From Micractinium sp. NFX-FRZ (Eukaryota; Chlorophyta; Trebouxiophyceae; Chlorellales; Chlorellaceae), in assembly GCA_029339195.1 (NCBI GenBank), contig JAPTJF010000048.1, forward strand, positions 62,001 through 126,000: a stretch of DNA of 64,000 nt, read 5' to 3'. How positions within the stretch are numbered: the stretch's first letter is position 1; each line of letters opens with the position of its first letter. This document shows, in pieces, positions 1,102 to 62,777 of this stretch. The notes under the pieces were generated by a model, which was given only the letters and a program-made list of their open reading frames with translations, was not told the DNA's origin and ran no database searches. The position numbers and the translations under genes were made by a program.

Positions 1102-3393
1102 ATGGGCGATTCACGTAGCGAGCTCAGCGATTACTCGGATTACAGCTACGACTCAGGCGCGCCATCGACTATCGCAGACCTGTTGCAACGGTTCACTATT
1201 GATATAAAGCCCGAGATCACACTGAAGCTACGATCACAGTGCGTTTCCACCCGTCGGGGGCCGGTGGCCAAGTTGGGCGCCGCTCTGCCTCTGTGCGCGC
1301 CCTGTGCCTGCAGCGGCAGGAATCGTGGCAAGGAGCCAGGTGCCGCCCGCCGGATGCCCTGGCCTGCGCCGCAGCCCACCGCTGCAGGTAGCTCTCCGGC
1401 CTGCCACCCGCCGCCCGCCTCGTTCGCCCTCTGTGCTCTGCACTGCCACCCGCTGCAGGGTTGGCCCAGTGATTCTGGGTGCTGACCTCACGCGCATCAC
1501 GGGAGCCAAGAGCAATGTGGGGGCCCTTGTGGTGAGTCGCAGCTGGCCGCTGCTTGCGCTTCCCTGCTGCCCGGGTGGCGGCCGGGTACGGCGCGCCGCA
1601 GCGCTCTGCCCTGCTTCCTGGGTGCGTCGCTCCGCTCACCACTCCGTCTGCCCCGCCCTGAATGGCATGCCCCTGTTGGATCATCGCCGTCTCAGCCTCC
1701 GCCCACCATGCGCATTCTCTGCCAAGGCGGACCCGCCTCCCTGCCGCCCAGCCGTGTCCTCCCTCATTTGCCGCACCCCTCCCGTCCTGCCCTGCTTGCT
1801 GGCTCCTTCCCTGAAAGCGTTGAGGCCTCCCCGGCGATCCCTTGAAACCCAACCAGCCCTGGCGCCAGCGCCTGCCTACAACTGACCCCATCCCACCTGT
1901 GCCCACCTCCCTCCACGTTGCCCCCCCGCCAGATCAAGCCCTCCAACCCCAACCAGCCCTGGCGCCGCCTGCGCATGGACAACACCGGCACGCTGACGCT
2001 GCGCTCCCGCAAAATCGAGTGGTGGCTCTTCGCGCTGGACTTCACAGCCCACGCCAACCCCATCACCCGCACGTTCGACTTCTCCTACAGGTGCGCTGCG
2101 CACGCTGCGCTGTGCTGCGCTGCGCTGTGTTGCGCCACCACCAGTGCTGTGCTGCGCTGTGCTGCATTGTGCCGCCGCGCTGCGCTGCCTTTGCGCATGG
2201 TCTGCAGGCGCCTGCAACTGGGCGGTGCTGCTGCGTTGCACTACGCACAACGGTATAGATGTGCTGCACACGTGTAGCTGTCACCTTCGGGGGATCAGCA
2301 GCACAGGGCTGCGCTTGCCTGCGGTACTGGTTGCTGCACGATGTGTACCAATCAGCCAAGTGGCGTGGCTTCACCCTCCTGCAGGGTGGCCACCAAGTGG
2401 GACATCAAGCGTGGCGAGTACAGGAACAAGAAGGCACTAGAGCTGGGGGAGAAGACGGGGGCGCGCGTGCACTACAACATCTCCTACTCTTACCCCTCCA
2501 TCGATGGGTGAGACAGCAGGGCCTACTGCATGCTTCATTCCCAGGGTGGGGGGGAAGTCCCGGCCCAGGGGGGCTTGGCTGCCAGGCAGCTGCAGCACCT
2601 TGCCCTCAAGCTGCCATTGCGGGCTTGCTTGCGCCAGGGCTGCCCGCCGTGCACGCGTGTGTTGGGTGCTGGGCCGCCTTGTGGGCCGCCTGGTTGCCGC
2701 CATGCCTTTGCCGGCCTGGCCACCTGTGCTGCCCCCGCTTCTGGAGCGTGCGTGCTGAGCCACATCGAGGCACGCTGCGCCTGCTGACGCTGCTGCGCTG
2801 CGCGTGCTGTGCTGTGCAGCTCCATTGGCACGGCGGCGCGGCGCGGCGTGTCCCAAGAGACCCACACAGAGCTGGGGTACGCACACCTAGAGATACCCCG
2901 CTTAGAGCTTGTGGTCTGGCCAAGCGGCCGCCCCGCCCCGCCTCTCTCGGCATCAGCGGCGCCTGCAGAGCCCGCCGGCAGCGGCGAGGGCACGGCAGAG
3001 GGCGGCAGGGAGGCGGTGGCCTGCGGCGGCGCGGCGGGCGGCGGCAGCAGCGGTGCCGCGGGAGGAGCAGACTCAGCACGTGCTGGTGCAGCCAATGGTG
3101 GTGGCAGCAGCGGCAGCAGCAGCGCCAGCGGGGCGGCCAGCGGGAGCGGGCCGGCACCGCCGTGGGGCCACATCAGCAGCCGGCAGCAGCAAGGTGCCCG
3201 CCGCCTAGCGGGGCACTTGAGGGCCTTGGCCAGCAGGGGTGCAGGCGGCGGTGAGCACGGCGCGCAGCAGCGCCGACAGGCTGGGCTGGAGGAGCTGAAC
3301 AGCCACCTGGCGAGCATTGAGGGGCGGTGGTGGGACGCCAGCGGCGGCAGCTTCACTGCCAGCGGCGGCGTGGTGAGGTGGGCGCAGAGCTGA
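1102..3393 (+). CDS. Unrecognised five-exon protein, beta-strand-rich
   Basis: Five exons join in phase: 1102-1238, 1459-1531, 1933-2090, 2385-2507 and 2820-3393, giving about 354 residues. All introns are GT-AG. The first 30 residues are Ser/Asp/Tyr-rich. The middle (about residues 30-165) alternates hydrophobic and polar residues with many Trp, Tyr and Phe (for example KIEWWLFALDFTAHA and ARVHYNISYSYPSIDG), as in amphipathic beta strands. That recalls an outer-envelope beta-barrel, but this is inference only. The last 150 residues are a low-complexity Ala/Gly/Ser linker ending in an Arg-rich helix. I do not recognise the family. The clean joining of all five exons and the contrast of the conserved-looking middle with its introns support a real gene. 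Intron 2 carries a copy of the start of exon 3 (see repeats). Confidence 0.65.
1847..1876 (+). repeat. Intronic copy of the exon 3 start
   Basis: About 30 bases around AACCAGCCCTGGCGCC repeat, nearly unchanged, 100 bases further on at 1947-1975, inside the first codons of exon 3 of the gene at 1102-3393. The copy lies in the preceding intron and has no AG acceptor directly before it. Confidence 0.7.
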
Positions 3394-5064: not shown

Positions 5065-5103
<39 letters not shown>

Positions 5104-5720: not shown

Positions 5721-7123
5721 ATGGCCCGCTCGGGCTCCGCCAAGAGCTCGAGCTCGTCGGGCTCCTCCTCCCGCAGCAGTGGCTCCTCTTCCTCTAGCGG
5801 CACCAGCTCCAGCAGCGGCACCTCCCGCTCCAGCGGTTCGCCCTCCGGTTCCCCTTCACGCGGCCGCTCACCGCCCCGCCGCGGTGACCGCCGCAGCAGT
5901 GGCGCCGACGCCGCCGCCAAGCCTGCAGCCGACGGCAAGCCGCAGGAGCGCAAGCCTGCGGGCGGCGAGGCGGCAGCAGGGCCTGCAGCAGCGGCGGCTG
6001 CAGCAGGGGGTGATGATGGCAACACACGCCTGCATGTGGGGCACCTGACCCGCAACGTGACGGATGCACACGTGCGCGAAATCTTCGGGCACTTTGGAAA
6101 GCTGCGCAGCGTGGAGCTGGCAATGGACAAGGTGGTCAACCTCCCCAGGTGGGTGCTGGCCTGCCTGCAGGGGACAGCAATACACACAGCTGGGTGCTGC
6201 CGACTCCAGGCCAGCCAGCAGCACTGCGAGCCGCCGGCGCAGCTCAGCAGCAGGGGTGCGGGCGGGCGGTAGGGCGGTGTGTGGACTTGCTGGTCCCGGC
6301 TGGGTGACTTTTCATGGCGTATGCAACAGCCAGGCACAGCGGGCGTGCTGTGCTGGTTATGCAGCGGTCAGCAAGCGCACTCTGCTAGCCACGGGTTTGC
6401 TCACCACCTTGGCTAGCCCATGATTGGCCAGCTTGCCCCTGGCTCCAAGCAGTGCCCCATGGTAAACTGCCCCTGCCCACCCTCCCGAGCTGCAGGGGCT
6501 TTGCTTACGTGGAGTTTGAGACCCGGGCGGCGGCAGACAAGGCGCGGGACCACATGGATGGAGGGCAGATTGACGGCAACACAATCGCCGTGCAGTTTGT
6601 GCTGCTGCCCAAGCGGAGGGAGCCCAGCCCGCCGCCCCCACGGCGCGACGAGCGCGGGCGGTCACCGCCGCGCCGCCCGCCCAGCCCCCGGCGCCGCAGC
6701 CCGCCGCCCCGGGGAGGCCGCAGCCCGCCGCCGCCGCGGGGAGGCCGCAGCCCGCCGCCGCGAGGTGGCCGCTCGCCGCCGCCGCCACGGGGTGGCCGCT
6801 CGCCGCCGCGCCGCCGCTCCATCTCACCCCCACGCCGCCGCAGCCCGCCGCCTCGAGGCGGGCGCTCACCGCCCCGGCGCGGGCCCAGCCAGCGCCGTCG
6901 GAGCCGCAGCCCCTACAGGGGAGGTCGGCGCTCTCCGCCGCGGGGCATGCGCTCCCCACCCGGGCGCGGCGGCCGCCGCAGCCCGCCACCTCGCAGCCGC
7001 CGCTCGCCCTCGCCCCCCAGGCGGCGGGGCCGCAGCAGCAGCAGCAGCAGCCGCAGCAGCGGCTCAAGCAGCAGCTACAGCAGCGACAGCAGCAGGAGCC
7101 GCAGCCGCAGCCGGCGGAAGTAG
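5721..7123 (+). CDS. SR45/RNPS1-like splicing and exon-junction factor
   Basis: Two exons (5721-6148 and 6496-7123) join in phase to 351 residues. The start sits in a good context after GCAGCC. The order is an N-terminal Ser/Arg-rich region (about residues 1-60), an Ala-rich linker, a single RNA recognition motif (about 100-178) with RNP2 LHVGHL and RNP1 GFAYVEF, and a long C-terminal region of RRSPPPRGG-type repeats ending in SRSRSRSRRK. An RRM flanked on both sides by RS regions is the hallmark of RNPS1 in animals and SR45 in plants. These act in the nucleus as splicing activators and as part of the exon-junction-associated ASAP/PSAP complex. The single intron splits the RRM. The C-terminal half is highly repetitive at DNA level and likely varies in length between strains. 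Confidence 0.9.
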
Positions 7124-9372: not shown

Positions 9373-9669
9373 CTGTGAAGAAACCCGGGTGCTATTGAAC
9401 TGCGGGTGGGTGCACAGCGGTGCGGAACCGGTCAATTTAGTCTGCGCGTCTTGCAGAGGTGGCAGAGCTGGTGCCAGCTCTGCCACCTGGTGCCAGCAGG
9501 TGGCAGATGCAAGGCCCCTCTGGCTTGCATTGTTTGTTTGCACCGTCATCGACATTACCCACACCCACACCGACATCCACCGACACTCAGGCAAGGCGAT
9601 CGGTCCCTGAGTGGCTTGCGGCAAACCGGGGGTGCTCGCTCCTTACCGCTACCTACCGCCCCTGCAGGA

Positions 9670-13953: not shown

Positions 13954-16900
13954 CTACTCCTGGCTAGTTTGCCGCCTGCTCTGCAGCTGCTGCAGGCGTG
14001 CCTGCAAGCCCTGCACACCGGCGGCAAGGGGGGGCACAGGTGGCCGTCGAGTCAGAGGGCAGGCGAGAGTGATGTAGGCCAGACCCCAGACCCCAGCCGC
14101 CCAACTACCAAGCAGGGGATCTGCCAGCTGTCCAGCCACTCGCCAGCACAATCTGCATGCCAGGGTACGGCAGGCAGCGCCCCAGACCCCAGCGTACCTC
14201 CAGGCTGCTGCTCATGGAGCTGACGTCAGCAGCGGCCGAGCGGCTGCTCGTGGGCAGGCTGGTGCTGCTGCCATTCAGGCTGGCAGCGCCGCTGTCGCCG
14301 CTCACACGCATCTGGCCCAGGCGCTCGCGCAGCGCCGAAAGGCGTTCGCCACTGACACCCCCGCTGGCCGACCGGTTGCTCGCGAGTGGCGACAGGGCCG
14401 GGCCGGGGCCAGGGGGCGGCAGGCCCGGGCTGGGCGCCCCGTAGGCAGTGTTGTAGCCGCCTCGCGCAGAGTCCAGCAGGGGAGGGGTGGTGGCGGGGCG
14501 CTGCAGTGCCAGCGGCGGCACCGGGGCGGCGCGCCGCGTCTCGTCCTGCTGCTGCGGCTGCTGCTGCGGCAGATATGCCTGGTACTGCTGCTGCTGCTGC
14601 TGCTGCCGTGCTGCCGGCGCCTCGTCGCCCACGCTGCCTGTGCGGCTGCCACCACCCGCCTCCTGCGCCTCAAGCGCCGCCAGCCCGCTCTCTATGAAGT
14701 TCTTGAACATGTCGGACGTGTTCTCTATGTACCGCTCCACAAACGCGGGGTACTCCCTGCGGTACACAGAAGCGGTCGACATGTGGGACCTGTTCTTGTT
14801 GTACTGCTTCACAAAGGCAGGGTGGTTCATGCGTTGGAGGCAAGGCAAAGAGGTGAGTGTGCCAGGGAGCAGCAGGGTGTGTGCCGAGGGCAGCACAGCA
14901 CCACTGAACAGAAGCCGGGTGCCCGCTCCCCCGCTGCTGCGCCGCTTGCCTGCCGCCCCACTGTTGCCGGCCCCATGCCTTGCGACCCTGCTGCCCTCTT
15001 CCACCCATGCTGCCCCCCCCACCCATCCCACCTGCGCAGCACATAGAGCTCCTGCATGGCGCCCGCGCTCTGGTCCCGGTGCATCAGACGTGACATCACA
15101 TCCTTGAGCCGCCCCTTGAGCTCCGCCTTCTGGCTGTCGCTCATCGCAGCCTGCACCGCCTGCTGCACCTCTGCCGCACTTGCGCCACCAGGCGCGCCAG
15201 TGCCAGCGCTGCCGGGCGCCGCTGGTGCTTCGCCGTCGGCGGAGTGCGTGTACGCCGGGGTGCCCGCTGGCGCGCCATCACCGCCAGCTGGCGGTGCCAC
15301 CAGCCCCGACTGGCTGAGGGTCTGGAGGTTGAGCGAGATGTAGGCAAAGATGATGGGCTGGGGGTCGGCGTCGCGCCCAGGGATGCATGCGGCGTAGCGG
15401 TAGATGTCGTAGCCCTGAGGCGAGGAGGGTGGGGGCAACAAGGGCACACATGGGGGTGGTAAGAGTCGAGGGGAGCGGGCAAGTATACTTGGGCCAGGGG
15501 GAATGGGCCGGAGGCAGCGCTAAGGTAGATGCTGTCGATAGGGTGCAGGGATGGGTGAACAGGCGGCAAACGCGAGGGTGTCATCCCGCCCAGCTCGACT
15601 CTTTCGCCCTCCCCCACCCCGATGCGACCTCCCCCCTTGGCAACCCCTGCGCCCCCCGCCCCCCTGCAGCTCACCAGCATCTTGCACATCTCGTGCAGTA
15701 TGGTCTTCACCATGCGCAGCGGCTTGTCGTCGGAGGAGGAGCGCTTGCGGATTTCGTCCACCCCCAGGAAGAGGAAGAAGTCGTGGAGGTTGAACAGCAG
15801 GGCAGACAGGTCCACGCCCTGCAGTGCAGTGGCGGGGGGCACGGGGGAGGGAGGGGAGGGCAGTGACACAGAGCAGTACAAGATGCAGTGCAAGTGGGGA
15901 GAGGAGGGGAGGGCAGTGTCGCAGTGGTACAGGAGGTTAGAGAGCGCAGTCCGCACCCAAGAGGGGGAGGCAAGTCATGGAGGTCGTTCAGTTGCGTAGA
16001 CAGGCCCACACCCCACCCAGGCGGGGGCGGGAAGCCCGGTGAGATTCCAGGGGCGTGTACCCGTCCCCCTATCAACCAGCCCACCCGCGTGCACCCCCCC
16101 AGCCCCATGCTGCCACCCACCACGCACCTCTGTGTTCCCCTGCAGCCCCTTTGTGAGCTTGATCAGGCACTTGACCACCAGGTCGTAGAACTTGTGGGTG
16201 GCGTCGGGCGCCACCTCAGCAGGCGGGTCACGCAGCAGCTGGAGCAGCGCGGCAAAGGCGTAGGTGCGGTTGCTGCGGGGCGGGGGGGCAGTTTGCATGC
16301 AGGGAGGTCAGGTGAGTTTCAGGGTGGAGGGACATGTGAGGGGCAGGGGGGGCAAGGTCAAGGGCAGGCAAGGGCATGCTGGACGATTGCTGTGGGCAGG
16401 GCAGGCAACGCAGGGGCAGGCAGGGGGCCAGCGAGTGGTAGCAGGGGGACGCCATCTGCACGAGGTGCGGCAGGGTGTCAGGCAGGCCAGGCCGGGCAGG
16501 GGGCAGCCGCCGGTGCCAGCTTTTTAGCTGCAGCCAGAAACGACCCCCACCCAGCCTGCACACTTGTTCTCGCTGGCTCACAAACGCTTGGGCAGGAGGC
16601 TGCATGCCTTCAGACCGCCTTGACCAGGGTGCCACCCTATCCAAGGTGCAGCAGCCCACACACCCGCCACCAGCAAAACACTGCCACGCAGCCCCTGTTG
16701 TGCCACCGATGCCCACCTGGCCTCCAGTATCTTCAGCATCAGCACGTTGACCGCCTTGACCAGGGTGGCCCCCTCCTCAAAGTGCAGCAGCCCACGGTCG
16801 TCCAGCAGGCGCAGCAGCAGCAGCGACACCGAGTCGCGCAGCGTGGCCTGCAGGGGACGGGCAGGGGTGGGGCAGGCTTGATGAGGCGTGGGCAGCTACC

Positions 16901-19900
16901 AGGGCGGAAAGCAGGGGTGCCAGACGGGCCGACCCAAGGCTTGGAGGGGCAGGGCAGCTGCCAGGGCAAAATGCAAGGGCGGCGCAAGAGCTCCTGCTGC
17001 TGACGCCGTGCCATGCAGCAGCCTGCTTTGCCTGCCCTGCTGGCCACGTACCGAGGTGAGGCCCGACGCGATCTGTGGCACATTCATGCCCTGCAGGAGG
17101 GGATGGCCGCAGCAACAGTGCAGCTCAGGAGACAGGCACCTGGCGCCGGCAGCAGGCAACATTGGTGGTTTACGGCGGACAGGCACATGCCCCGCCCTCC
17201 TACACACCGCATGCTGGGACGAAACGGCATGCGCGGGGCCTGGGGCTTTGAAAGCCTGCAACTGGATATGGTCCTCTGCCTGGGTCCCTCTCTGCATTGC
17301 CACACCCACCAGACCTGCCTTCTTTACAGAACCCCACCTGCTATTGAGTGTGCGCCTGGCCCACTGATGTTCCAACACACACTCACACACATGGTCCACG
17401 CCCACAACTCTTGGAGCCCAGCCCACCTGCAGCATGATGTTCAGAGCGTACTTGGCCCCACGGCTGGGGGGCTGGCCGCCGCCCGCCACCGCCGCCGCCT
17501 CTGCCGCCTCAAAAATGCGCAGCAGCTGCGGGGGTGGAGCAGACCAAAGATACGTCAGCTTTGAGACAAAAGACACTCAGCTGTACTGTGCTCTTAATGG
17601 CACCACTATGTCAGCACACGAAGACTGTTCTGCAACTGCGCCTCTTGCTAATCACCTGCTGGTTGACGGTGGCAAACAGGGCGTCGGCAGACTGGCCCAT
17701 CACCGCCAGCATGTGGGGTGAGGCGGCACCCTGCAGAGCCAGCATGATGTCGCCACACCTGCAGCGTGTGTGTGCAGGCGGGTGGTCACCAGCGGGAGTG
17801 CCACCACAGGCGGGCAGCGGTAGCAGGGGAGGGAGGGCGCATGGCGGTGGGAGTGGGTCCCGGAGCGGTGAGGGCAGTTGCAGCAGGGGGTTAGCCAGCG
17901 CCATCAAGCAGGCACTGCCCCACCTCAAAACCCCACAATGGACTGTCCTGCCCCAGCAGGGCCCCCTGCCTTGCCTGTGTTTCACCGCATCTCATCCCCA
18001 GTGTGCCCCTACCTCCCCGCTTTGCATCGCACCCCACACAGTGCACCCTGCCTCTCCGCCTCACATGAGCTTCATGTGCTCCACCGCCTCCTCCACATTC
18101 TGAGAGGCAATGCCCTCCATGCTCTCAGACCAGCGGGCATCAAAGTCGGCGTCATCCACCACCGGCATGGGTGCTGATGCGACTGCACGACAAAGGGGCG
18201 GCACGTGGGATCAATAAAGCGAGAGGCGAGGCCAGGGCAAACGTGTGCTCATGAGCTGGGGTGCAGATGCCCAACCAGGGGTTGGCAGTCGGCATCATGC
18301 GCTGGCATTGGGCTGGCGTGGCTGAGAGAGAAGAGAGGGGTGAGTGGAAGGCGAGGGGAGGGTGCCGGCCTTTGGGCGAGGCAACAACAGGCCAGAGGCA
18401 GCAAGGGTGAGGCATGCAGGCAGAAGCAGGGCAGGGAGGAACAAAGCAGGCACAGCATCCGCCCTTGCACTGCCCCAGCACCCACCCCACACGTCAATCC
18501 AGCTGCCATGCACGCCCACCTGGCGCTGTGTAGGGCCGCATGCCAGGCACCGGTGTGGGTGCCGCTGATGCCTGCTGCGCCAGATGTGGCGGCTGGACAT
18601 ACGCCATTGCAGTGCCAGGGCGCTCTGGCAGCGGCGTGTTGAGTGCATTGGGTGGCGTGAAGGCCTGGCGGCTGTACTGCAGCGCGGCGTCGCTGTACTG
18701 CCCACCGCTGTACGAGCCGGCGCTGTACGCCCCTGCCGACTCGGCATCCGTGCTGCCGCTTGCATAGGGCAGGCCGCCATAGGCGCCCACTGGCGTGCCA
18801 GCCATGGGCAGGGGCGCTACCGGTGCGTCTGCAGCACCGGGGCCGGGCTCGCGAGGCACAAAGGCGCCCGGGCGGTGGCGCGCCGTGGGGGCAGCTGCGG
18901 CGGGCGCCGTCTCCACGGGCGCAACCTTGGGCTGCCTGCTGGAGCGCCTCAGCTTCTCCTGCACCATGTCCTGCTCCCGGTTGTCCAGCCTGGGGAGGGT
19001 TGAGGCCAGGAGGGGTTGGGAGTGAGTTGTCCAGCAGGAGCCAGCGCGATCATCGGTTGACCAGCTGACTGGTCAGTCGGGGAAATACAGTAAGCGGAGC
19101 ACAGAGAGTGACGAGCGAGCATTCCCCAGCTGCCTGCACCATGGCCCGCCGACCCGCCCCGTGCCACCCAGTCCCCTTCCAGCTCCCAGGCCCCGCTCAG
19201 CGCACCTGCCCAGCAGCTTGAACACGCCCTCCCCCTCCTCCACCCAGGCCTGCTCAATGCAGGCAAGCGCCGCCGAACGCGTGGCGCCATCCCGCTCCTT
19301 CAGCAGCGCCGCCACCGTCACCATGGGCTTGGAGCGCGCAGCCTGGACGGGGGCAATGCCGTCCCGCTCAATGATTTCGGCGATGCCCTCTGCAGGGGAG
19401 CAGACGGTCAAATAACGGCAGCCAGGCAGCAGGCGTCGGTGGGGGAGGGCCAGCGAGCAGCCACGCCAACTCAGCGCTCCGGCAATACAGGGATACCTCC
19501 CTCCAGTCCTTGCTGCCTTCACCCATGTGCAACTGCATTGCATCCCCATGTCCAGGCAAGCACACATCCTAACTCCCACTACCCAGGGCAGCTGCCGGCG
19601 ACCGCCGGCGGGCACGCTACCACTCGGCCTCACCGCAGCACTCGACCCTGGTGCGGTTGCTCTTGGAGGAGAGGCCCTGTGAGATGAAGTCCACCACCTT
19701 GGTGGACGGGTGGAGGGAGCAGGCCAGGCGCAGGACGTCGCGGTGCAGCGCTCGCACGCGGTCCTACGACACAAACGGGAGTTGGGATGACGGGGTGTGA
19801 GCATGGGAGCTGGCGGGCCGGGTGAGGGGAGGCCGCAGGGGATGGCGCCAAGGGGAGCGGGCAGGCACATGGCAAGCCAGCGACTGGCACGTCTCAAAAA

Positions 19901-22900
19901 TACTGCACCTGTCTCTGGGCCCCCACCTGGCCATGCCCCCCCACACACAGAACCCCACCACGCACCTGGTTGTGCCCCATCTTCTCCACCACGGCCGGCA
20001 GGAAGACCAGCGCCTCGTAGTCGGTCATGGTGTAGCCCACCCCCGCCAGCGCCTCCATCACCGCCTTGCACATCTCCAGCACCTTGACCAGGGACTGCAG
20101 CAAGGGTGGGGCGTGAACGAGGTCAACACAAATTGATTGATGCCCCGCCAGCACATCCACCACTGCCACAGCACATCCCAACCAGGGGCTGCGGGCGGGT
20201 AAGCTTCCATGATCCACAGACTGAAGAAACCTCTTGACCCACACTGGCTGGGGAGACCAATGAGGCAACGGCACCGAGCACTGCCCCAGCCCTGCCTTTC
20301 ACCAGCCAGGCCCCCCACCCACGCGGCCTGCCAGGCACACCTGCATGTTTCCGTCGCAGATGCGCAGCACCGCCCAGCGCAGCAGCAGGTCCAGGCTGGC
20401 CTGCACCTCCTCCAGCAGCCCAGCCAGGTTGGACAGCAGCAGCTCCACAGCGTCCAGGTGGCGCTTGAAGTCCTGGGCAGGCAAATGGATGGGGGAGGGG
20501 GGCAAGGAGTGTATAGCAGTATGGCAAGCGTAGGGCGGTGGAGCAGGCAAGCTTGCCGGGTGCCAGGTGGCGCTCAAGGTGCTGGGGCGGGCGGGCATGG
20601 AACGGGCCCATGGAGGGAAAGAAGTGGGAGGTGGTTGTTGCCCTATGCGAAGGCGGGAGGAGTGTTTGTGAGGAGGTCGGCCCAAGCTGCTCCCCCCCCA
20701 CCCCTGCCCACCTTGTGGAAGAGCAGGGCGGCCCAGTCTGGGGAGGCCACCGCCATCAGCTCCCGCTGCAGGGCCTCCACCTCCTCGGGGTTCAGCCCCT
20801 CAAACTTGCCGGGGCGCGGACGGTACTGCGCAGCAGGGGGGCACGGGGCCAAGTTGAAAGATGGGCGGTGAGAGTGTGCGGGCGCGGGTGCAGGAGTTTG
20901 GCACGCCTGGCGAGGAGGCAGGCGGGCCGTGACCCAGGCAAGCATGCAACACGACATGTAAGAGCAGACCACCAATGCAGGCCGCACTGCAATGCCCCAG
21001 GGAGCATGGCTGGACGCCCTGCCCGCCCACGCCTGTGCTGCACCCGCGCCGGCCTCACCTTGCGCACACGCTCGGCCTTGCCGTCGCTGAATGCCAGGAT
21101 GGTGCCCGCAGGTGCTGCCTCAGCTGCCGCCACCGGCGCAGCAACAGGCGCAGGCGCCGCAGCGCCACGCGCAGGCCCTGCCCGGCTGGCGCCGCGTGCC
21201 GCGGGAGCCTTGGCCGCCGCCGCAGAAGTGCCGGGGCGGGAGGCGGCAGCAGCTGCAGAGGACGCGGCAGCGGCTGACGTGGCGCTCACTGGCCCGCCCA
21301 GCACCTTGCTCAGCGCCTCCATTGCCGCCTTCTTGTCCGCACTGACCAGCAGGGCGGCAGCCTTCACCACCTCCTCCTGCCCCAGCTGGGCAATCATTTC
21401 GTTCAGCAGCGCCGTCCCTGCGTCCCGCACGCTGACAGCCTTGTCTCCCATGGCTCCGGCCGCAGAGCGCAGGGCAGAGTCCACACCTTTCTTGCCCTGG
21501 CCCTCCGCCGTCACCTTGGTCAGCCTGCAAGTAATGAACGTGAAGGGAGGTCGGAGGAGGAGTGGAGAGTGGGGAACCTAGGGTGGGGGGCATGCAGGGG
21601 GGCGACAAGCGGTGGGGAGGAGCGTCAGGCATGGCGTGCAGGCAGGTGGAGGGTGCCTGGGTGCAGGCGGGAAGCTGGCAGGCATGCAAAAGCACGCGCT
21701 ATAGGTATCCTGCCTGGTGGCCCTGATGTCACGCACGCCGGCCAGACCAACACGCCAGTCGGTCGTGTCGCCTGCGCCCGCGCATCTATCCCAGCCCGCC
21801 ACATGCGCCTGCACCCTGTCGCCCACCCTCCCGCGCCCACCCCTGCGCGCACGCACAAGTGCACGCTTGCCACCTTGCCCCCACCAAAGCCCCCTCCTCA
21901 TCTAACTGCCCCCAGTGGCCAGCCCCCTGCCCTGCTTAACAGACGGGCTACATGGGTTGCCACAAAGAGGGCTCACCACTGCAGCGCCGAGATCTTGCCG
22001 TCGGCCAGGCACTTGGGGTTGGCTACCGAGTCTGCCACAGCCGGGAAGAGCTTGTCTGAGGAGGACACAGTGATCCAGGCATCCAGCATGTAGATCACGC
22101 CGTCGCGCACCTGCGCACACGCATGGGGCAACAGGCAGAGGTGTTGGGAGAGTGGGCACACAGCAGGTGGCATGGGACATAGAGGAGCAGCAAGGCGCGT
22201 GGCATGCGCAACACGCTGCCGCGTCGGCACAGCCCTTTAAAACGGAGGCACAATGTGGATAACTGAGAAGCGGCCAGCCTTGTAGGGAGTTGATCATGCT
22301 CCAATGGCACGGTGAGCAGCAGGACAAAACGCGCTGTGTATCTTTCTACAGGCCAGCACACCCCCAAGCCTGGCCCAGCAACAGAGGAAAGGAGCTCAAG
22401 ACATATGCACCTGCTTCTTGTTGTCCGCCAGGTTGGTGACCGCCGGGGAGAGGATGGGGCGGGCAACCCGGTCAAAGGGCGGCCCCATGGCACGCGCGAT
22501 GTCCCCCAGCAGCACCAGAACCTTGGCTGTCAGGTTGCGGTTGCTGTCGCCCATGCGGCCCTGCAGGGGGTGTATGTGAGACAGGGTAGGCAACCACAGG
22601 CAAGCTTGAGAACGGCAGATGTACACATGCAAGCGCATGGCAGTGGCTGCGCTGTGCATGGCCGCTCAGGAGGCACCTGCCCCCCATGGAGGCACAGCAG
22701 AAAGCTTGAACTGGTGCAGCTGCACGCCCAATAGCAACGCCCCAGCAGGGTCACGCGAAACGAAATAACAGCAGCGCACGTGCCTTGAGTGCGCCAAACA
22801 GCTCTCCCACATTGGGCGCGATGCGCTGGCTGGCCTCTGCCAGCAGCTGGGAGACCTGCAGTGCAGGTGTGGTGAAGGCCTCAGCGTCCAAAGTGGTGCA

Positions 22901-30508: not shown

Positions 30509-30543
<35 letters not shown>

Positions 30544-38464: not shown

Positions 38465-38495
<31 letters not shown>

Positions 38496-38944
38496 GTGCT
38501 GCCGCTGCCGCTGCCGCTGCTGTTGCTGTTGCTGTTGCCCCTGCTGGGAAGGTTGGATCAGGGTGTGAGGGTGGGCAGCTGCGCAACTGTGAAACAGTTT
38601 GTGCCATCACCTGCACGTGTGCTGTTGTGCACAGCCCGCTACCCGCTCCTGCCTGTGTAGCCTTGTCTGCTCGGCACTGCCTGACCCTGCTGGCTAAGTA
38701 GCCATGCAGCACTGCTGTCGTCACTGCCACCGCCCCACCTTGTCTGACCCTGTTCGCTCCTTGCAGGCCACAGGCGCAGCGGGGGAGCGGTAATTGCAGC
38801 TCCCCACGTCCCACCCTTGCCTGCCCCCCTGCCCCCTACGTCCCGCAGGCCACAGATGCTGGTGGGGAGCGGTATGAGCTGCACCCAGACGGCAACAGCC
38901 TCGACTTCTTCCAGGGCCTGGTGCGCAAGAAGCTGCCAGCGTGA
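35586..38944 (+). CDS. HCS1: Biotin protein ligase (holocarboxylase synthetase)
   Basis: Six exons (35586-36222, 36507-36664, 37045-37164, 37582-37899, 38261-38332, 38849-38944) join to about 466 residues. The Arg-rich, acid-free start MRPALRPQLVHNLLAPLRH looks like an organelle presequence, with a second ATG (TRNMATADS) as a possible cytosolic start, as known for plant HCS1. The catalytic core is clear: STQVVVQQNV, YGGKGRGGNVWESP for biotinyl-AMP binding, IKWPNDVYAGRLKLGGILC, and VGLNLSNRTPTTCVDAL. The C-terminal domain ends YELHPDGNSLDFFQGLVRKK, close to Arabidopsis HCS1. It activates biotin with ATP and attaches it to carboxylases such as acetyl-CoA carboxylase. A Gln/Ala-rich insert of about 40 residues interrupts the core after DALIEQ. 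A cryptic intron within exon 1 (about 35808-35921, possibly with a GC donor) cannot be excluded. Confidence 0.92.
36764..36805 (+). repeat. Intronic copy of biotin ligase exon 2 end with donor
   Basis: About 42 bases ending GCGGCTGCAG and followed by GTGGGTGCA repeat the end of exon 2 (36623-36664) and its donor with few changes. It lies about 140 bases downstream in the same intron. Confidence 0.75.
38351..38540. repeat. Long CTG/CCG triplet tract in an intron
   Basis: About 190 bases of mixed GCTGCTG and GCTGCCG units fill much of the fifth intron of the biotin ligase gene. If the intron is retained, the frame stays open through the tract and on to about 38700 and would add a poly-alanine tail. 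Confidence 0.9.
38763..38808 (+). repeat. Intronic copy of the last biotin ligase exon start with acceptor
   Basis: GCAG followed by GCCACAGGCGCAG...GGGGAGCGGT repeats the acceptor and first 40 bases of the true last exon (38845 on). The copy contains an in-frame TAA, so splicing to it would cut the protein short. Confidence 0.75.
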
Positions 38945-44024: not shown

Positions 44025-47000
44025 ATGGCGAACCGCACCGACAAGGAGGCGTATGCCATCCACGGCACGAACCCGCAGGTGCGCCAACCAGTGGAGCACG
44101 GCTGTACGCCGCAGAGGCAGGGAACAGCGGTGATGCCGGACCGTAGGGTCACGATAGAGCCACTGCGCTGGTGATGGGCGCCCTGGAGGCCCGCAGCGCC
44201 GCAGGGGCCACTTGCCGCCGCTGCCGCCGCCGCCGCCTGCCGCGCCCGCCTGCTGACCGCCTGCCCATTCGTCCCCGCTGCCCTGCCCCGCCCTTTGTTC
44301 CCGCCAGAACCTGGTGGAGTACATATCTCGCCAGAAGATCTATGACAGCGTGTACTGGAAGCAGGACTGCTTTGGGCTGAGCGCGGAGCGGCTGGTGGAG
44401 AAGGCGGTGGAGCTCAAGGAGGTGGGCGGGTGCTCCTGGGGAGTTTATAGGCTGCAGGAGGCTGCTTGTGAGCAGTGTCATCGGGAGGGTCGCCTGGGGG
44501 TGATTATTGCTGGGCACAGTGCAGTGGAACTCAAGTATTTGCTACACAAGTTGGTTGGTGGTGGGTGCAGGGTTGAGGCTGTGGGCGAGATGGGTGCACA
44601 CGCTGGTTCGTCTGTCTGGGCTGACTATGTGCGAGGTTGTTGTAATGACGCAGCTCCCGGCGGACCTGTTGCTGTGGCCTTTGCCTGCCATTGCGGCGCT
44701 GCCCTGACGCGCGTGTCCACCGCCCCGTCCCCTTGCCCCCTGGCCCCGCATCCATCCCAGGTGGGCGGCATGTTTGGCGAGCCGCAGAAGCCCTCCAACT
44801 TCCTGTGCCTCATCCTGAAGATGCTCCAGATCCAGCCCTCCAAGGACATCATCGTGGAGTTCATCAAAAACGACGACTTCAAATACCTGCGCCTGCTGGG
44901 TGGGTGGGTGGGGCAGGCTGGGCGGGGGCGCTGCAGACTTGCCTACGTGCTGGGTACAGACAGTGGGTGCAGGGCGCTGGGGGCCCGCCTGCGTCCTGCG
45001 AACATTGACAGAAAGTCTGTGGAAAGCAGGAAAGTCTCAACAGTGCGTGCTGCGTACAAAGTTATGGGAATAGGGCAGGGCGCACGGTGGTCACAGCACC
45101 TTCTGCCTGCATCAGCGTCACATCGCCACGGCCTGGACCAATGCGCTCACCCGGCGCCGCCACTCCCCGGCCTCCTGCTGCTGCTGCCGCAGGCGCCTTC
45201 TACATGCGCCTGGTGGGCCGCCCGCTGGATGTGTACCAATACCTGGAGCCGCTGTACAACGACTACCGGAAGGTGCGTGGACGCGGCCATTGGGCAGGCA
45301 CCATTGCTGCCCTGATTCGCAGCTTGTGTGGGGAACGGTTGTTGTGTGTGGGGTGCCTGGTCTGGTCTGTGGCTGAGGCTTCTAAGTGCGCACCCGCATC
45401 TGATGCCGTACATCGAGTGCTAGAAAGGGCATGTGGTGGGACGTCGATGCCACGCCGTGATGCTCTCTGGTTGCCCGCTGTGTCTCGTGTGAGGGCGTGT
45501 GCTGGTGGAATGCTGTGTCCGGACTGGCCACAGGAAGGTGCGCTGCAGGGTGTCAACATCAGCAGAGTCAGATGGGCTGCGCACCGCTTGCCAGGTGCCC
45601 GTGCTGCGCATGCCGCAAGGTTACGTGGCCCCGCTCCGCCCCCACAGCCCGTCTCATCGCTGCACCTGGTGCCGCTGCCGCCGCTGCTGCTGCTCCTGCT
45701 GCAGGTCAGGGTGCGCACCCTGCTGGGGGGGCAGGAGCTCTCCCACGTGGACGAGGTGAGGGGCGGCAGGCAGTGTGGGCGAGCAGGTCTTGGCAGGCAG
45801 GGCGGGTGGCCCCAGGCTCTGATAGCTCTGGAATGTGGCCCAATGTCACTTCACCCTGCACGCAGCCACACCGGCCCATTGTTCCTGCAAGCGCCGCCAG
45901 GGCCGTCCCGCCTGCTGCTGCCCCACTGCTCCGCTCCCCCCGGCCTTGCACACGTCACCCCCGGTTCATTGACGCAGCGCTGCACAAGGACAGCTGTGTC
46001 CCATCTTGCGTCCGCGCCTGCCCATCTCCTCCCTAACACCTCTGCCCCTCCCCCCTGCCCGCCTCCCCACAGCTGATCGACGCCATGCTGCACAAGGACC
46101 GGCTGTTCACCATCTCGCTGCCGCGCCTGCCCAGCCGGCTGATGCTGGAGAACACGGGGCAGCTGGAGCCGCGCATCTCGGTGCTGGATGAGGAGTTTGA
46201 TGAGGCGGCCCTGGAGGTGGGTGGTCAGGGTTTTGAGAGTTGGCAGTAGGTCGTTGTGGCTGGGCGGCTGCAGGGGCATCTTGGTGCTGGATGAGGAGGT
46301 TGATGAGGCGGCCGGCCCTGGGGGTGGGTGGCACCCGCCTAAGCCCGTGATTTTGAGTGCTGACAGTGAGTTGTTGTGGTTGGGCAGCCGCGCGTCTTGG
46401 TGCTGGAGGAGGGGTTGGTGAGGCGGCCCTGGAGGTGGGTGCACCTACCTGAGCCTGAAGTTGAGTTGAGAGGAAGGGCGGTGTGGATGGGGCAGCTGAG
46501 GGCTTGCTGTCTGTGGTGGGGAAGGAGTAGGACGAGGCGGCCCTGGAACTGAGGGGTGTGGGAGGGATTACGGCTGTTGCAGGTGGAGAGCACATGCTCA
46601 GCTCCCCAGCAATACCACGCCTGCTCGCTGCCCTGCCAGCGTATGTGCTGACCACTCTCTGCGCTTCTGCTGTACCCTTGCCGGCCTGCCTGCCCGCCTG
46701 CAGGAGGAGCAGCAGGAGCAGGCGGACGCGATAAAGCAGCAGCATGCGGCAGCGGCAGGGCGGGAGCAGCAGGAGGAGGGGGAGATGGAGGAGGAGGAGG
46801 AGGCCAGGGAGCGGCGGCGGGAGAAGGAGAAGTGGCAGGTGGGGTCTAGGGCTGGGGAGGGGGGCGGGCTGGTGGATGAGGGTGACATCAGAGCAGGCCT
46901 GAGCTTGCGCTGAGTTGCTGATTGCCAGCTCTCGCCATACTACTCTCCCCACTCCCCCCACCCCGCCTGCCCGCATCCCGCCCTCCTCACCCTGCCCCGC

Positions 47001-47810
47001 AGCTCACCAAGGACGAGAAGAGGCGGCATGAGCGGGAGGTGGGGCGCGCACGCAGCCGCAGCCGCAGCCGGGAGCGCCGGCGGTCGCGCAGCCGCAGCAG
47101 GGAGGGGCGGCACGACGAGCGCGACCGGCACGAGCGGCGGCGGGAGCGCAGCAGGAGCCGCAGCAGGGGGCGGGACGGCAGGCGGTACGACGAGCGCGAG
47201 CGGCACGATAGGCGGCGCGATGACAGGTCTGTGTGCGTGGGAAGGAGGGGTGGGATGGCAGGAGGTTGAGTGATGGTGTGGGGCAGCACAGCACCTCACA
47301 CACTGTCTGGCTTGGAGATACGTGGGGGCCTGAGGAGGGCGTGCTGCTGTAAGGTGCAACGCCACGGCTTCATCTGCAAAGAGGTATTGCCTGTTTCACC
47401 ACCCCAGCACCCGCCGCCACTGCAGGGACAGGCGGCGTGAGCGCAGCCGCAGCGGGGAGCGGCGGCGGCATGACGACCGGCGCGACAGGTGGGCCTGCCC
47501 GCCTGCCTGGGTGCCTGCCGTGGCTGCTCTACTTTCAGGGGCTAGTGCAGTGTTCTCTGACTGGCCTGACGCCTTGATTCTGCCACTGCAACTTAGCCCC
47601 AACGTGCTCATGACACCACTCCCTCCCTCTGCCACATCATCATGCAGGGATGACCGGCGAGAGCGGGACGTGCGCGGCAGCGACCGCCGGCGGGAGCGCA
47701 GCGTCAGCCCCGGCGAGCAAGGCGGCGGGAAGCGGGCGCGGGGGGAGGAGGGAGAGATTGCAGAGGCGAATGCGCTGCGGGCCAGCCTGGGGCTCAAGCC
47801 GCTCAAGTGA
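44025..47810 (+). CDS. PRP38: Pre-mRNA-splicing factor PRP38
   Basis: Ten exons (44025-44078, 44308-44421, 44761-44899, 45193-45272, 45705-45755, 46073-46216, 46704-46838, 47003-47226, 47426-47488, 47648-47810) join in phase to 388 residues. Residues 1-180 form the PRP38 domain: NLVEYISRQKIYDSVYWKQD, VGGMFGEPQKPSNFLCLIL, FKYLRLLGAFYMRLVG and LEPLYNDYRKVRVR. A Glu/Gln coiled segment and an RS-rich tail follow (RARSRSRSRERRRSRSRSRE), ending ALRASLGLKPLK. PRP38 is a U4/U6.U5 tri-snRNP component needed to activate the spliceosome in the nucleus. The RS tail is typical of plant and animal forms and absent from yeast. Intron 6 holds three degraded copies of the exon 6 end. A TGTAA signal follows at 48007. 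Confidence 0.95.
46272..46548 (+). repeat. Three tandem degraded copies of PRP38 exon 6 end plus donor
   Basis: Copies at about 46272-46322, 46390-46434 and 46510-46548 each resemble the exon end GTGCTGGATGAGGAG...GATGAGGCGGCCCTGGAG (46178-46216). The first two also keep the following GTGGGTG donor. Spacing is about 100-130 bases, and similarity falls with distance from the exon. Confidence 0.8.
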
Positions 47811-57225: not shown

Positions 57226-60200
57226 TCAGTAGGCGCCGGGGGTTGGGACATCGCCTGCACAGCGGCAGCACACGCAGGTAATTAGGGGGGTGCAGCGATA
57301 CAGTGAGTCACTGCAGGCCCCCAGCGGGCACAGCGCACTCGGCTGGTGCAAGGTGCGCACTGAACCCCACCCCGGGGTCGTGCTCTTTGCTCAAGAAGAG
57401 TATGCAGCACGCCATCAGGCGCAGGGATGAGAGATCATTCCACAGAGGCTTCACATACAGATGGAGAGGGCGGGGCGGCTCACCAGTCTCGTACACGCAC
57501 GGCGCCCAGCCCTTGCAGACCGTGCCTCCCGGGCAGAAGAACTCCTTGCCACCTGCAGCATGCGAGCGCACAAGGCGGACACGTTCAACGAGGCGCCTGC
57601 TGCCGGCGCATCCTTTCTAGATTGAGACGAGGGGCAGGCCAGGCGCCAGCACAGCACAGCCACAATTTCCCGCAGCAAGCGTGTGTGAGAGAGGCAGGCA
57701 GGCGCCACAGGGCAGGCGGCCTCTTGCCCCCATCGCATGCCGCCTCCTTCACAGCACACGACCCATCAATCAAGCAGGAAGCAGGTGCACATCCGAAGCG
57801 AGCTCGTGACACAGCGCACGGTTCTGTGGGGCTGCACGTCGAGCGACACTTATTGTGGGCAGCTTGTTGGCAGGCTGAGAGCAAGTGACAGCTGGGCGGG
57901 GGTGGTGGCTCCTCACCTGAGCAGAAGGAGCGGTCGGTGGCGCAGCGGTACTCTCCGGCGGGGCACTTGGGCTGCACCACATCGCGTGGCTCCTTGCAGG
58001 GGCTCTCCCCCTTGACCGACCCCAGGCAGATCGTGCCGGCGGGGCAGCGGGTCTTAAAGCCGCCTGCGGGGGAGGCGGGGAGCAGCACGGGGCGGGGCGC
58101 GTCAGTAACAGGGTTCGGCGAGCGGGTGTTGTGTGTCTGGAGGGGTTTCAGCGGCGCATGTGGCTGCATGAGTTGCAGGCCAAGATGGGAGAGTGCGTGC
58201 TGCCGCAGCAGCGCAAGGTGGCTGGCAAAGCAACGCATAGCAGAACACGTGAGGTGCGCCCCCCTCACCATGGCAGAAGTGTGTGATGTCGCAGCACTGG
58301 AAGTCGGCCCAGGATCCGGCGCACCGCTGACGCGGCTCTTCAACCTCGCAGCAGTGCCTGCCGCTGCGGGAGCCTTTGCAGGTGGTGCGGTGGGGGCAGC
58401 GCAGGATCTCGCCCTGCCGGGAGGGGAGGGAGGGGGAGGGACGGGCCGGGGCGGCAGGGTGAGGAGCCGGCGGGGTAGCGGTGCAGGGGGTGGGGTGGGG
58501 CTGCGCAGGCCTCGTTGTGTTGCGGGGAGAAGTAAGAGCCAGAGGCAGTAGGGCTGCCCACGTGTGTGTGTCCCCCAGGCCCTGCCCACCTTGTAACAGT
58601 ACTCGTGCTTGTCCCGGCACTTCCAGTCCTCCTCGGAGCACTGCGGCTCGTGCTTGTCCTCCGGCTTGTCGGGGTGCTCCGGCTTTGGCTTGTGCTCGTC
58701 CTTGCCGTTGTCGTGCGTGGCTGCAGGGGCAGGGGGAGGCACAAATGCGATGAGGACGTGGCCATTGGATGGGAAGAGAGTGGGCTTGCAAGTGGCAAAA
58801 GCACATGGGTCCCGGCACAAGGCTGACGTAAGCGGCCGGTGAAGCGGCAGGCGAGGTGGCCGGCGTGGCACCGCTCGCCATGCAGGGACACCCCATGCCC
58901 ACCAACACTTGCCGCACTGAGGCGTGTGCCGACCGGTGGCACACACCCCAGTCAAGACTTGCTGCCGGAAGTGCACGCCGCAGCTCCGAGACAGCCTTGC
59001 AAGCCTGTGCCAACTTGCACGCCGCATCACCACCCCGGTGTGTCTGGCACCCACGCAAGCCCGCGCCCACGTCGGCGCCCCTCCTCCCCCACCTGGGCAC
59101 CACGCGTTCTCCACGCATGGGAAGGGAGCCAGCCCCGTGCACAGGGTGGTGTTGGGGCACTGGTAGTGCACGCCGCCGGAGCAGTAGGTACTGCGGTGGG
59201 GAAGAAGACGCACAGCTTGCGCGTCAGAAGGTGCAGACTCACAGCAGCTCAAAACAACGAGCAGCTGCGACGCAGCCTGTGTGTGTGCAGCAGAAGGGCA
59301 CAAGCTGTGTGTGTGCAGCAGAAGGGCACAAGCTGTGTGTGTGCAGCAGAAGGGCACAAGCTCCCTGCTCTCCCCACCGCCTGCCTCAAGTGGCCCCTTG
59401 CCTCCCACCTCAAAAGCGAGCCGCAGTCCGGCCTCACACACAACCCCCTCTTGATGCGCCTGCACAGCCATGCCCCAACATACCCCCACACAATAGCCTT
59501 CAACAAGTGCCCACTCGTGTGTTGGCCACGCCAGGCCAACATAGATCAGATGCGTAGGCCACAGGGCGCAGGTGAGGCCCCCCTTCCCCCATCCCCTGCT
59601 TCCCTTCGGCTCTCTCTCACTCCCACCCTCACTCTCGCTACGTCACCCTCCCACCACAGCGCAGGCCCGAGGCCTCCCGGTGCCCTCACGTGTTGGTCAG
59701 GCAGGTCATCTCGGGCAGGGTGCAGGTCAGGTTGGTGGGCTTGTCGGGCAGGCACGGCTCCTCGTCCTCCTCAATCCGCCCCACGCAGAAGGTGTTGGCA
59801 GGGCACTCCATGCTCATGCCACCCAGGCAGTAGTGGCTGCGGGGGGTGACAATGGGGTGCGGGGGGAGGAAGGGGCGGGGGTGGGTGTGAAGAAAGGGAG
59901 GGATGGGGGAGTGCACTCCGCATGCATCCTGCCCAGGCAGCAGCGGCGGCGGGGAGGAAGGCGCCATGGGGGGAGGGAGGGCAGGTGTGTTGTGAGCAGG
60001 CAGCGCTGGGTGCAGGGAGTGGTGAACAGAAGTGGCCTCCCCATTATGTGCAGGCAGATGGCAAGTGCCTTTGCAACTGCCCACCCTAACGCCGACACAC
60101 ACAAGCCTTGGTTGCGGAGCCCCCAAAACACACAGACTCCGTCGCTCGCCTAAGCTAGCAGCGTTCAACACTCGGGCATTCACTCGACTCATTCAGAGCA

Positions 60201-62741
60201 CGCTGGCGCACCCCTCACCCGATGTCGAAGCACACGTCGTCGTCAAAGGGACCCGGGCACTGGGCAGGGGGCAGCTGCAGGCGGTGGCAGGGAGGGGCGG
60301 GCGAAGGACAGCGGCGGTTTGTCATACATACACATAGGGGGAGCAACACGGGGAGCACCTGCCTTTAGGGCACGTTCATAGAAAAGCAGTGCTTGCCTGT
60401 AGGTGAATGCCCTGCTGCCTGTGGCCCCCGGCAAGAGTTACCAGCTGCGTTGTTGAGTGGCGCCATGCTGGCACATGCTGGCTGGCACAGTGCTACTCCT
60501 GTGCCACGTCACCCGCTGCCGCCAGATCACTCCCTTTGATATCAAAATAATACCGCATGTACTTCAACCCAGCACTCACGTCCTCCTTGCAGGGGTTGGA
60601 GACTCCGTCGGGGGACCCCACGCACTTGAAGCCGTCGGGGCAGCGCAGCGTCTCGCCCTGGAAGCAAAAGTCCCTGCACAGCACAGCAGAAGGTTTCACC
60701 GCTTCTTGCTTCCAGGGTAACAAAGCGTCCCATCAGCACTTTGGGTTGAATTTGCGCTGCAGGCAGGCATCGGGTGCACACGGTTCGCGCTGCTACCCTA
60801 CACGCCACAAGTTGCCTGCTTTTCTGTACACACACAGCAGCGAAATGCACACGCAATCATCATTCAAGGCGCCCCACCTGTCGGAGTCTTCAAGGCACTC
60901 GTTGTCGCTTGCCTCACATTGTTCATCAGGCTCTTCAGAAGGGGAGGGGGACAGGCGGGGGAGTCGCCAGAAGTTGGAGCAGCAGCCACCACAGCCACAG
61001 CCAGGCACAGGGCAGCGCAACCACTGCGGGTGCCTTCCGGGGAAGCTAAGCACGGCACAGCACGCACGGCACAGCACAGGCACAGCACGGCACAGCACGG
61101 CACAGCACGGCACAGCGCAGCGCAACTCACGGGTGGTGCAGGGGGCGGACCCGCGGCAGATCGAGTCCCCGGGGCAATCGAAGCCCACGCCGAATGCGCA
61201 GTACGAGCTGCGCAGGGCGGGTGGGGGAGGAGGGGTGAGGCAGGGCGGGGGTGGGCAGGTGGGGGGAGCACAGCCCAGGCGCTGACACTTGGTGGAGGTC
61301 GCAGGGCACCTTGTGCCCGTCTTTGGTCAATTCATTACCCTATCAATTGCTTAAATGTCCCGGCGTCCCCTCGAGCTGTGCCCCTCCTCCTCCGCCCCTT
61401 CCCATCTCCCCTCTTCCCTCTTTCCCCCTCCCGTCCCCCCGTCCCTCTACTCAGCCTTCCCCCCTCTCACTCGAGGTTCACGCAGCTGTAAGGGGATTGG
61501 GTGCAGGCAGGCTGCACGGGCTGCGTGGGCTGGCAGGGGTTGCCGTCCCCGCTGTCGGTGGCGGGGTTGCAGTACGTGTTGGCGGCGCACTTGAGCACGG
61601 AGCCACCTGTGGGAGGCAGGCAGGGGTCAGATGTTCAGGTGTGGGTCACACTCGGCGGTGAGCGAGCTGCAGTGGTGCAGTGGTGCTGTGGTGGCAAGCC
61701 GACGGGCGCGCCACAAAACCGGCTGTTGTGGCAAGCCACACGGGTGCACTATAAAACCGGCAGCGCACTCGGCTCCACACATGCACCGAGCCGGCCCAAT
61801 CGAGCAGTACATGTTGGGCGGTACTGTTGAAGTCATACGGGCACTTGCTGCCAGGCACCAGCGGCACACCCGGCAGCTCCCAAGGGACATGCGGTACACC
61901 TTTGAGCGGTACACCCTCACCAAGGCAGTACGAGTTCTTGTCGATGCACTGGAAGTCGTCATAGGCACCCGGGCAGTAGCCCGCGACTTCCACGGTGCAT
62001 GGAGACTTGCCGTTGACGGAGCCGGTGCACTTGGTGCCGTCGGGGCAGCGCCAGGCGGTCATGTCCTGGCAGTACTCACTGGAGAGGCAAAGGATGGGCG
62101 AACAAGAAGGACAAAGGTTTAGGGTTTAGGGTTTAGGGTTTAGGGTTTAGGGCAGCGCCAGGCCGTCTTGTCCTGGCAGTGCTCACTGGAGAGTGATGAA
62201 TGAAGGAGACGGGGAAGAGGGCAACAGGTAAGCAGGTGCACTGCACAGGACAGCAATGCACAGCACAGCACAGCACAGCGCAGCGCAGTGCAGCACAGCA
62301 CAGCACACAGTGGCGCAGTGTAGCACAGCACATCAGAGCACAGCCGTAACTGCAACCAAGTGGCGCAGCACAGCACAGCCACAGCTGCAGCCAAGGTGCA
62401 CGCACTTGTCGTTGAGGCAGGTCCAGTTGCCAACGGTGCACTCGGGCACCACGCCGCCGGGGTCTGCAGGACGGCAAGCAGGCAGGCAGGAGGCAGGCAT
62501 TGAGGGCGCGAGGCAGGGGTTCTGGCAGCCTGGTGAGGTGGCAGTCGGTGTGCCCTTGACAATTCGGACCAGGAGTCGGGAAGGTGAACAGCACAGGGGC
62601 AGAACAGCACTGCTAGCACCAGCGGCGGCTGCTTTTTTGCATGCAGCAGCAGCGCCAATGGCCAATCAACCGGCTTGCTCGCTTGTTTGGGCTTACAGTC
62701 TGTATTTCCGCAAAGAAACTTGCGACACAGACCAAGACCGG

Positions 62742-62777
<36 letters not shown>

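Follow-up and report, generated by a model that had tools for sequence, protein, structure and literature searches.

The window analyzed here is a stretch of 64,000 nucleotides from the green alga Micractinium sp. NFX-FRZ (contig JAPTJF010000048.1, positions 62,001 to 126,000; G+C 65%), out of an assembly of 66,065,352 bases in 838 contigs. Its predicted genes include PRP38 at 44025-47810, for which the best protein matches came from Micractinium tetrahymenae, Chlorella vulgaris and C. variabilis (83, 78 and 75% identity, respectively). Introns of these genes carry diverged copies of the exon edges that border them. An earlier note had cited ten such places, and an ungapped diagonal scan recovered the described exon-intron pair at each of them (Table 1). 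The places at 14780, 15971 and 16613 lie in one gene (13954-29610), and those at 36764 and 38763 in another. The note had counted six genes and probably a seventh; seven is the count if 1847 and 32392 are joined to the adjoining gene models, but the exon borders at these two positions are uncertain because both fall just outside the final models.

Copy frequencies were assessed in an independent sample of twenty 10-kb loci, consisting of bases 20001-30000 of contigs C1-C20 and chosen by position. Eight smaller loci were added, and L002, L029 and L030 were excluded from gene-model counts because they overlap the window. The total sampled sequence was ~289 kb, and all intron rates below refer to this sample. 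Six-frame lists of open reading frames did not separate the genes of the GC-rich window. Exons and introns were predicted with a purpose-written, self-trained, two-strand gene finder. An initial model over-spliced the sequence (median exon 32 bases), and the final model adds an exit cost and a per-intron penalty. The finder settled on the splice motifs CAG/GTGAG for donors and TGCAG/G for acceptors (the slash marks the border), and predicted 514 exons and 458 introns with a median intron length of 251 bases. Many of the gene models translated into long uninterrupted proteins; one, a predicted protein of ~2180 residues from 37 exons, is XMAP215-like. The PRP38 homologues aligned continuously across the exon joint 46216/46704, which spans the array-bearing intron 46217-46703, and exposed one misplaced acceptor elsewhere in the model, where 19 residues are surplus.

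Of the 458 introns, 437 were flanked by two predicted exons and 418 were within the limits set for testing (exons of at least 40 bases, introns of 80-1200 bases). The last 60 bases of the upstream exon and the first 60 bases of the downstream exon were each compared with the intron by Smith-Waterman (SW) score. A strict copy was defined by p≤0.003, at which the intron's own edge outscores practically every other edge on that intron, together with an SW score of at least 17. There were 71 edge matches at p≤0.005, and 53 of these were strict; 50 strict copies reached to within 10 bases of the border, and 51 had a usable spacer.

Local repeats were far more frequent at short offsets than at control distances. 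In the window, 27 segments scoring at least 20 were found at offsets of 40-339, compared with 2, 2, 0 and 0 at the four distances used as controls; merging left 26, of which 7 were RS-domain coding repeats at 6.7-7.0 kb (hand count). The twenty independent loci gave 122 merged segments at the same offsets and 10, 1 and 2 at control distances. At SW scores of at least 18, the upstream exon end was matched within its own intron in 26/418 cases (6.2%) and the downstream exon start in 23/418 (5.5%). Against the remaining introns of the same gene (5218 pairs) the values were 0.08% and 0.04%, and introns of other genes (169,088 pairs) gave 0.04% for both edges. No reverse-complemented exon edge reached this score in its own intron (0/418 for each edge). 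The earlier note had proposed a genome-wide comparison with shuffled or non-adjacent exon-intron pairs, and within the ~289 kb own-intron matches were ~100-fold more frequent than those of non-adjacent pairs.

The 53 strict copies were located in 48 of the 418 introns, or about one sampled intron in nine. Nine were in the window (9/85 introns), 41 in the independent loci (36/293) and three in the remaining loci (3/40). At p≤0.05 on either edge, 117 introns were positive against ~41 expected. Heterogeneity of copy frequency among genes was not significant (p=0.29). One gene, L026:1898-9774, presumably a relative of Hsp70/Hsp110, had strict copies in 5 of its 15 introns, as well as several multi-copy arrays.

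The copied segment is mainly the exon edge, and the copy is placed close to its source. Over the 71 edges, the median offset from exon edge to copy was 110 bases (middle half, 98-154), and offsets of exon-intron pairs peaked in the 100-125 class (28/88). Bases 1-40 of the upstream exon, counted from the border, were copied in 26/418 cases, bases 41-80 in 2/347 and deeper segments in 0.4-1.4%; for the downstream exon the figures were 21/418, 1/349 and 0. Copies of upstream exons were placed in the intron's 5' half and those of downstream exons in its 3' half, with 3/418 and 4/418 in the opposite half. Exon edges were not found in the intron at the opposite end of the exon (0/347 and 0/347). At SW scores of at least 17, the upstream exon end matched the next exon in 4/418 cases, which look like coding repeats, and exon edges matched their own exon in 3/243 and 4/243.

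The exon part of a copy measured 19-113 bases (median 45); the medians for the intron part and the spacer were 5 and 67 bases. Identity of the strict copies ranged from 0.70 to 1.00 with a median of 0.83; judged from this range, the earlier note's description of the process as ongoing is plausible. Mismatches over the 53 copies showed no strong bias by codon position (117/769, 148/771 and 160/767), and among the indels were lengths of 1, 2, 4 and 5 bases. The copies are therefore not evolving as coding sequence. The border dinucleotide was retained in about half of them (GT in 14/28, AG in 12/25). Within 3 bases of the copied border, 18 of 28 donor copies and 11 of 25 acceptor copies had a decoy site whose score reached at least the 5th percentile of the scores of real sites, compared with 3.5% and 3.1% at random intron positions; competent decoys were thus carried by 29 of the 53. 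Copy-bearing introns were also longer than the others (median 326 vs 242 bases). Both of the note's suggested consequences for existing introns, added length and decoy splice sites, are thus supported.

Local pairs were denser in introns than in predicted non-genic DNA. Those with an offset of at least 40 numbered 56 within introns (0.44/kb) and 4 in predicted non-genic DNA (0.08/kb; p=2.5e-5), a class that covers only ~52 kb of the sample and includes untranslated regions. When the annotation was rotated 300 times, 38 ± 6 exon-intron pairs were expected (maximum 54), and 61 were observed; exon-exon pairs were also raised (41 vs 26), and intron-intron pairs were not (33 vs 39). Among young pairs (identity of at least 0.9, offset of at least 75), a hand count gave 13 exon-intron and 10 intron-intron cases. 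By a hand estimate, this is roughly the outcome of uniform placement of ~110-base units minus those that alter the protein.

Fifteen exon edges had at least two intronic copies at SW scores of at least 15, and the control had none. First and second spacings within an array were mostly similar, including 68/73, 87/80, 96/97, 109/116 and 115/117. Over the 15 arrays the Spearman coefficient was 0.83, and 0 of 20,000 permutations agreed as closely. Among spacer comparisons within arrays, 12/30 reached z of at least 2. Repeated duplication of a single unit, made up of the exon edge and the adjoining intron edge, would give such mostly constant spacings.

Two neighboring paralogous genes, L020:4134-6450 and L032/L020 (C12:19296-21530), share an intron with the same array. 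The first paralogue was completed with 2.1 kb of additional sequence. In both, the start of the downstream exon is copied at 108/109 and 223/224 bases upstream of the acceptor, and because the positions match, the array most simply predates the gene duplication. Identity between the paralogues was 40/42 (0.95) in the exon, 34/42 (0.81) in the intronic copy, 54/65 (0.83) in the spacer and 13/16 in the upstream flank. As copy and spacer have diverged alike, the intronic copy in this pair changes as ordinary intron does. In the first paralogue, both spacers are related to one another as judged by eye, although the second paralogue alone gave p=0.52 in the spacer test. A loss of flank similarity is therefore compatible with a tandem origin.

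We consider it probable that the copies are tandem duplications of ~110 bp that spanned an exon-intron border and then decayed neutrally. Their location, orientation, offset, array period and decoy sites are observed features, as is the intron-like divergence of the copy in one paralogous pair; the steps that connect them may be as follows. Small tandem duplications, with a unit mostly of 70-130 bp, would arise in transcribed parts of the genome, and a unit that spans a border would leave exon edge and intron edge present twice. The spliceosome would keep to the outermost donor or acceptor. Such a duplication would be nearly neutral, because the outermost sites would stay in use and the mRNA would be unaltered. 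The intron would gain one unit, the inner copy of the exon edge would become intronic together with a decoy splice site, and this copy would decay as fast as intron sequence does. The exon side would remain recognizable longest, since selection on the protein holds the source in place, whereas on the intron side both copies are free to drift. Further rounds would build arrays with an almost constant period. In vivo, the outermost sites are presumably the ones used; in the gene models the copies are intronic by construction, and the PRP38 homologues confirm one joint. The earlier note had likewise proposed short tandem duplication across the border, and the multi-copy introns and the paralogous pair back this proposal. 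A possible candidate for the molecular cause is the fill-in of 3' overhangs, carried out by CST and Pol alpha-primase, which produces small tandem duplications and yields local duplications in the same orientation after breaks (PMC8355091).

Similarity extended past the copy into the spacer at p≤0.05 in 15 of 51 cases, and several observations on the flanks weigh against a border-spanning origin. In the 16 border-reaching copies with identity of at least 0.88, exon-side identity was 0.96 at 6-10 bases and 0.85 at 11-20 bases; on the intron side it was 0.56 and 0.35, with controls at 0.32 and 0.30. Spacer similarity was present in 9 of the 18 best-preserved copies (by rounded identity; 8/16 without two at 0.875). 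Simulated neutral tandem duplications (16 cases, five times each) retained it in 80/80, 79/80, 76/80 and 47/80 at 1, 1.5, 2 and 3 times the copy divergence. Two nearly intact copies, L006:1167 (35/36 identical) and L014:7395 (26/27), have flanks without similarity, and 39 of the 53 matches stop within 3 bases of the border, more than random breakpoints would give. Donor-side intron pieces of 40 bases recurred in the intron in 10/400, 10/350 and 8/266 cases compared with 26/418 for the exon edge, and acceptor-side pieces in 5/400, 1/350 and 3/266 compared with 21/418, although drift on both sides would lower the recurrence of intron pieces. In addition, spacing was uneven in 3 of the 15 arrays (287/141, 109/79 and 63/81), and the paralogue evidence is that of a single gene pair. 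About half of the best-preserved copies thus look exon-limited. This could reflect faster erosion of compositionally skewed flanks, a flank that was replaced later, or copying limited to the exon, and the contrast between exon and intron sides is inflated by selection of the best exon matches.

Copying limited to the exon could have occurred if break repair or template switching pasted the exon edge alone ~100 bases into the intron, with the short splice-site consensus anchoring one end as microhomology. The intron-side similarity missing from about half of the best-preserved copies agrees with this, as do the median part sizes (45 bases of exon, 5 of intron, a spacer of 67) and a run of five TTTAGGG units at one copy junction, which resembles repair filler. 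We nevertheless regard such pasting as rather unlikely. Multi-copy introns mostly hold one period, and the paralogue array is visibly tandem although one of its spacer tests gave p=0.52. Templated insertions are also expected to yield inverted copies, and these were absent at SW scores of at least 18. Telomeric filler was considered as a general cause and rejected: the genome has only two sites with exact TTTAGGG x4, 62116-62152 and L031:1501-1528. Each lies within a predicted intron, and at the second there is no local duplication (SW 12). A related and also unlikely route is copying that recognizes the border itself and writes exon edges, which end only a few bases from the splice site, ~65 bases into the adjoining intron without flank, with tandem arrays formed later; splice-consensus microhomology or an RNA intermediate would be the means. 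If this were true, introns would grow by copying exon edges.

The decoy borders score like real sites well above background, and the exon part is more alike than the flank, as would be seen if selection kept the intronic copies, for instance as regulatory decoy exon ends, or if gene conversion from the exon renewed them. Constraint of this kind was initially favored and was dropped after the paralogue comparison, in which copy and spacer diverged equally; mismatches without strong codon bias and the wide spread of identities about a median of 0.83 also argue against it, and we give it little chance. That the copies serve as alternative or mutually exclusive exons is very improbable. Both copies in 14707-14833 are open in one frame, but the indels and weak codon-position bias among the 53 copies, and the divergence of the copy in the paralogue pair, do not fit coding use, and four PRP38 relatives have one copy only. 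Base composition of the 418 introns follows a strong strand-polar gradient, the first quarter having 40% G and the last 43% C, and this pairing of a G-rich start with a C-rich end favors weak matches. Chance, low complexity, assembly error and a dispersed mobile element are nonetheless hardly credible in view of the matched controls (0.04-0.08%), the lack of reverse-complement matches and the divergence of most copies. For two introns, 46217-46703 and that of L006, the sole matches were the intron itself and its own exon, and the matches of a third intron searched for a dispersed family were simple repeats.

The window features are collected in Table 1. Seven of the ten places cited earlier are among the nine strict window copies. 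Besides 20143-20184 and 45968-46023, the window has weaker copies that the earlier note does not list, 59907-59946 being one example. The exon border at 1933 that belongs to the source of copy 1839-1866 was present in the initial gene model and absent from the final one, and the source of copy 16613-16659 ends 32 bases before the border.

Table 1. Exon-edge copies and associated features in the window. Identities written as fractions are from the ungapped diagonal scan, except 46/57, which is that of the strict copy; SW scores and p values are from the exon-edge comparison.
Feature	Copy or feature	Source	Intron	Strand	Match
Copy of downstream exon start	1839-1866	1939-1966		+	25/28, offset 100
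Copy of downstream exon start	14779-14833	14707-14761	14757-15031	-	42/55; SW 27, p 0.0026
Copy of downstream exon start	15956-16012	15763-15818	15819-16127	-	SW 24, p 0.0026
Diagonal-scan pair for 15956-16012	15972-16013	15778-15819		-	32/42
Copy of part of upstream exon end	16613-16659	16749-16795	16273-16716	-	41/47; SW 22
Copy of downstream exon start, not in the earlier note	20143-20184	20041-20081	20095-20340	-	SW 19, p 0.0026
Copy of exon end with donor, exon border uncertain	32396-32421	32312-32337		+	23/26
Copy of upstream exon end	33997-34043	34118-34164	33612-34108	-	35/47; SW 23
Copy of upstream exon end including CAG/GTGGGTGC	36758-36813	36620-36672	36665-37044	+	SW 29 (to 36805)
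Diagonal-scan pair for 36758-36813	36784-36813	36643-36672		+	29/30
Weaker second copy of this exon end	36690-36732 (scan pair 36690-36740)	36620-36672 (scan pair 36622-36672)		+	spacing 68 then 73
Copy of last exon's start with acceptor	38763-38804	38845-38886	38345-38848	+	32/42; below strict threshold
Copy of downstream exon start, PRP38, not in the earlier note	45968-46023	46076-46132	45756-46072	+	46/57; SW 30
Three tandem copies of PRP38 exon end	46262-46313, 46386-46434, 46510-46547	46157-46216	46217-46703	+	spacing 103, 115, 114
Diagonal-scan pair in PRP38 array	46276-46313 (more copies up to 46562)	46173-46210		+	36/38
Weak copy of downstream exon start, not in the earlier note	59907-59946	59797-59836	59837-60218	-	35/48; SW 16, p 0.0025; not strict
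Copy of downstream exon start with acceptor	62150-62193	62043-62086	62079-62405	-	SW 30
Diagonal-scan pair for 62150-62193	62153-62193	62046-62086		-	38/41
TTTAGGG x5 between exon and its copy	62116-62152			+	

Other repeats were noted in the window. A 28-base unit occurs three times with zero mismatches at 59277-59362, within a predicted intron, and is judged very young because its units do not differ. The gene at 57226-64000, with 15 predicted exons, contains many cysteine-rich repeats, by eye about one per exon. The RS-domain coding repeats at 6671-7017 have a period of 24-51 bases and account for many of the window's local repeats in coding DNA. Scans of the window for tRNAs and against Rfam found nothing, and a search with PRP38 in viral and genome contig collections found no relative of this genome.

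The earlier note had also suggested that duplicated AG-GT segments could seed new introns, and this was not supported in the sample. The AG-GT model predicts that the intron start resembles the start of the downstream exon and the intron end resembles the end of the upstream exon; at SW scores of at least 15, this signature was absent from all intron starts (0/418) and all intron ends (0/418). Border duplication here lengthens introns without visible intron birth.

In a potato RdRp gene, a tandem duplication that runs from an intron into the exon after it copied the branch site and tract together with the acceptor and the start of the exon (PMC4974935). The algal copies resemble this case, but a cryptic donor in potato made an extra intron and exon, whereas in the alga no extra intron was seen and the old intron became longer; potato is also a matter of one gene, compared with about one in nine sampled introns here. 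The AGGT tandem-duplication model of intron gain and its evidence have been reviewed (PMC3443670). Short tandem duplication within genes and duplicated splice-site sequences are common to that model and to our copies, which differ in the missing signature at both intron ends and in having border segments, not exon-internal AGGT, as sources. Direct repeats of 4-30 bp at the borders of 213 introns were interpreted as traces of breaks (PMC11782384). Those repeats also lie near splice borders; in the present analysis, by contrast, the exon part alone is 19-113 bases, each exon edge was aligned to the inside of its own intron, and the rates were set against matched controls. Introners have changed introns genome-wide across diverse eukaryotes (PMC9860276). 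Unlike them, the algal copies gave no dispersed family for two informative introns, and each derives from its own neighboring exon. The literature searched, which left out most subscription journals, showed no report of intronic exon-edge copies across a whole genome.

Border-crossing duplication, found in the literature searched as a single-gene case, is common enough in this alga to measure both its decay and its effects on splicing within one genome, and the array shared by the two paralogues is a ready-made clock for the decay of copies. Border duplication is abundant, and intron birth is not visible. The copies provide naturally duplicated splice sites that are alike when they arise and lie ~110 bases apart, and the cell must choose the outer one. 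The rules of splice-site choice, and one source of intron lengthening, thereby become directly testable.

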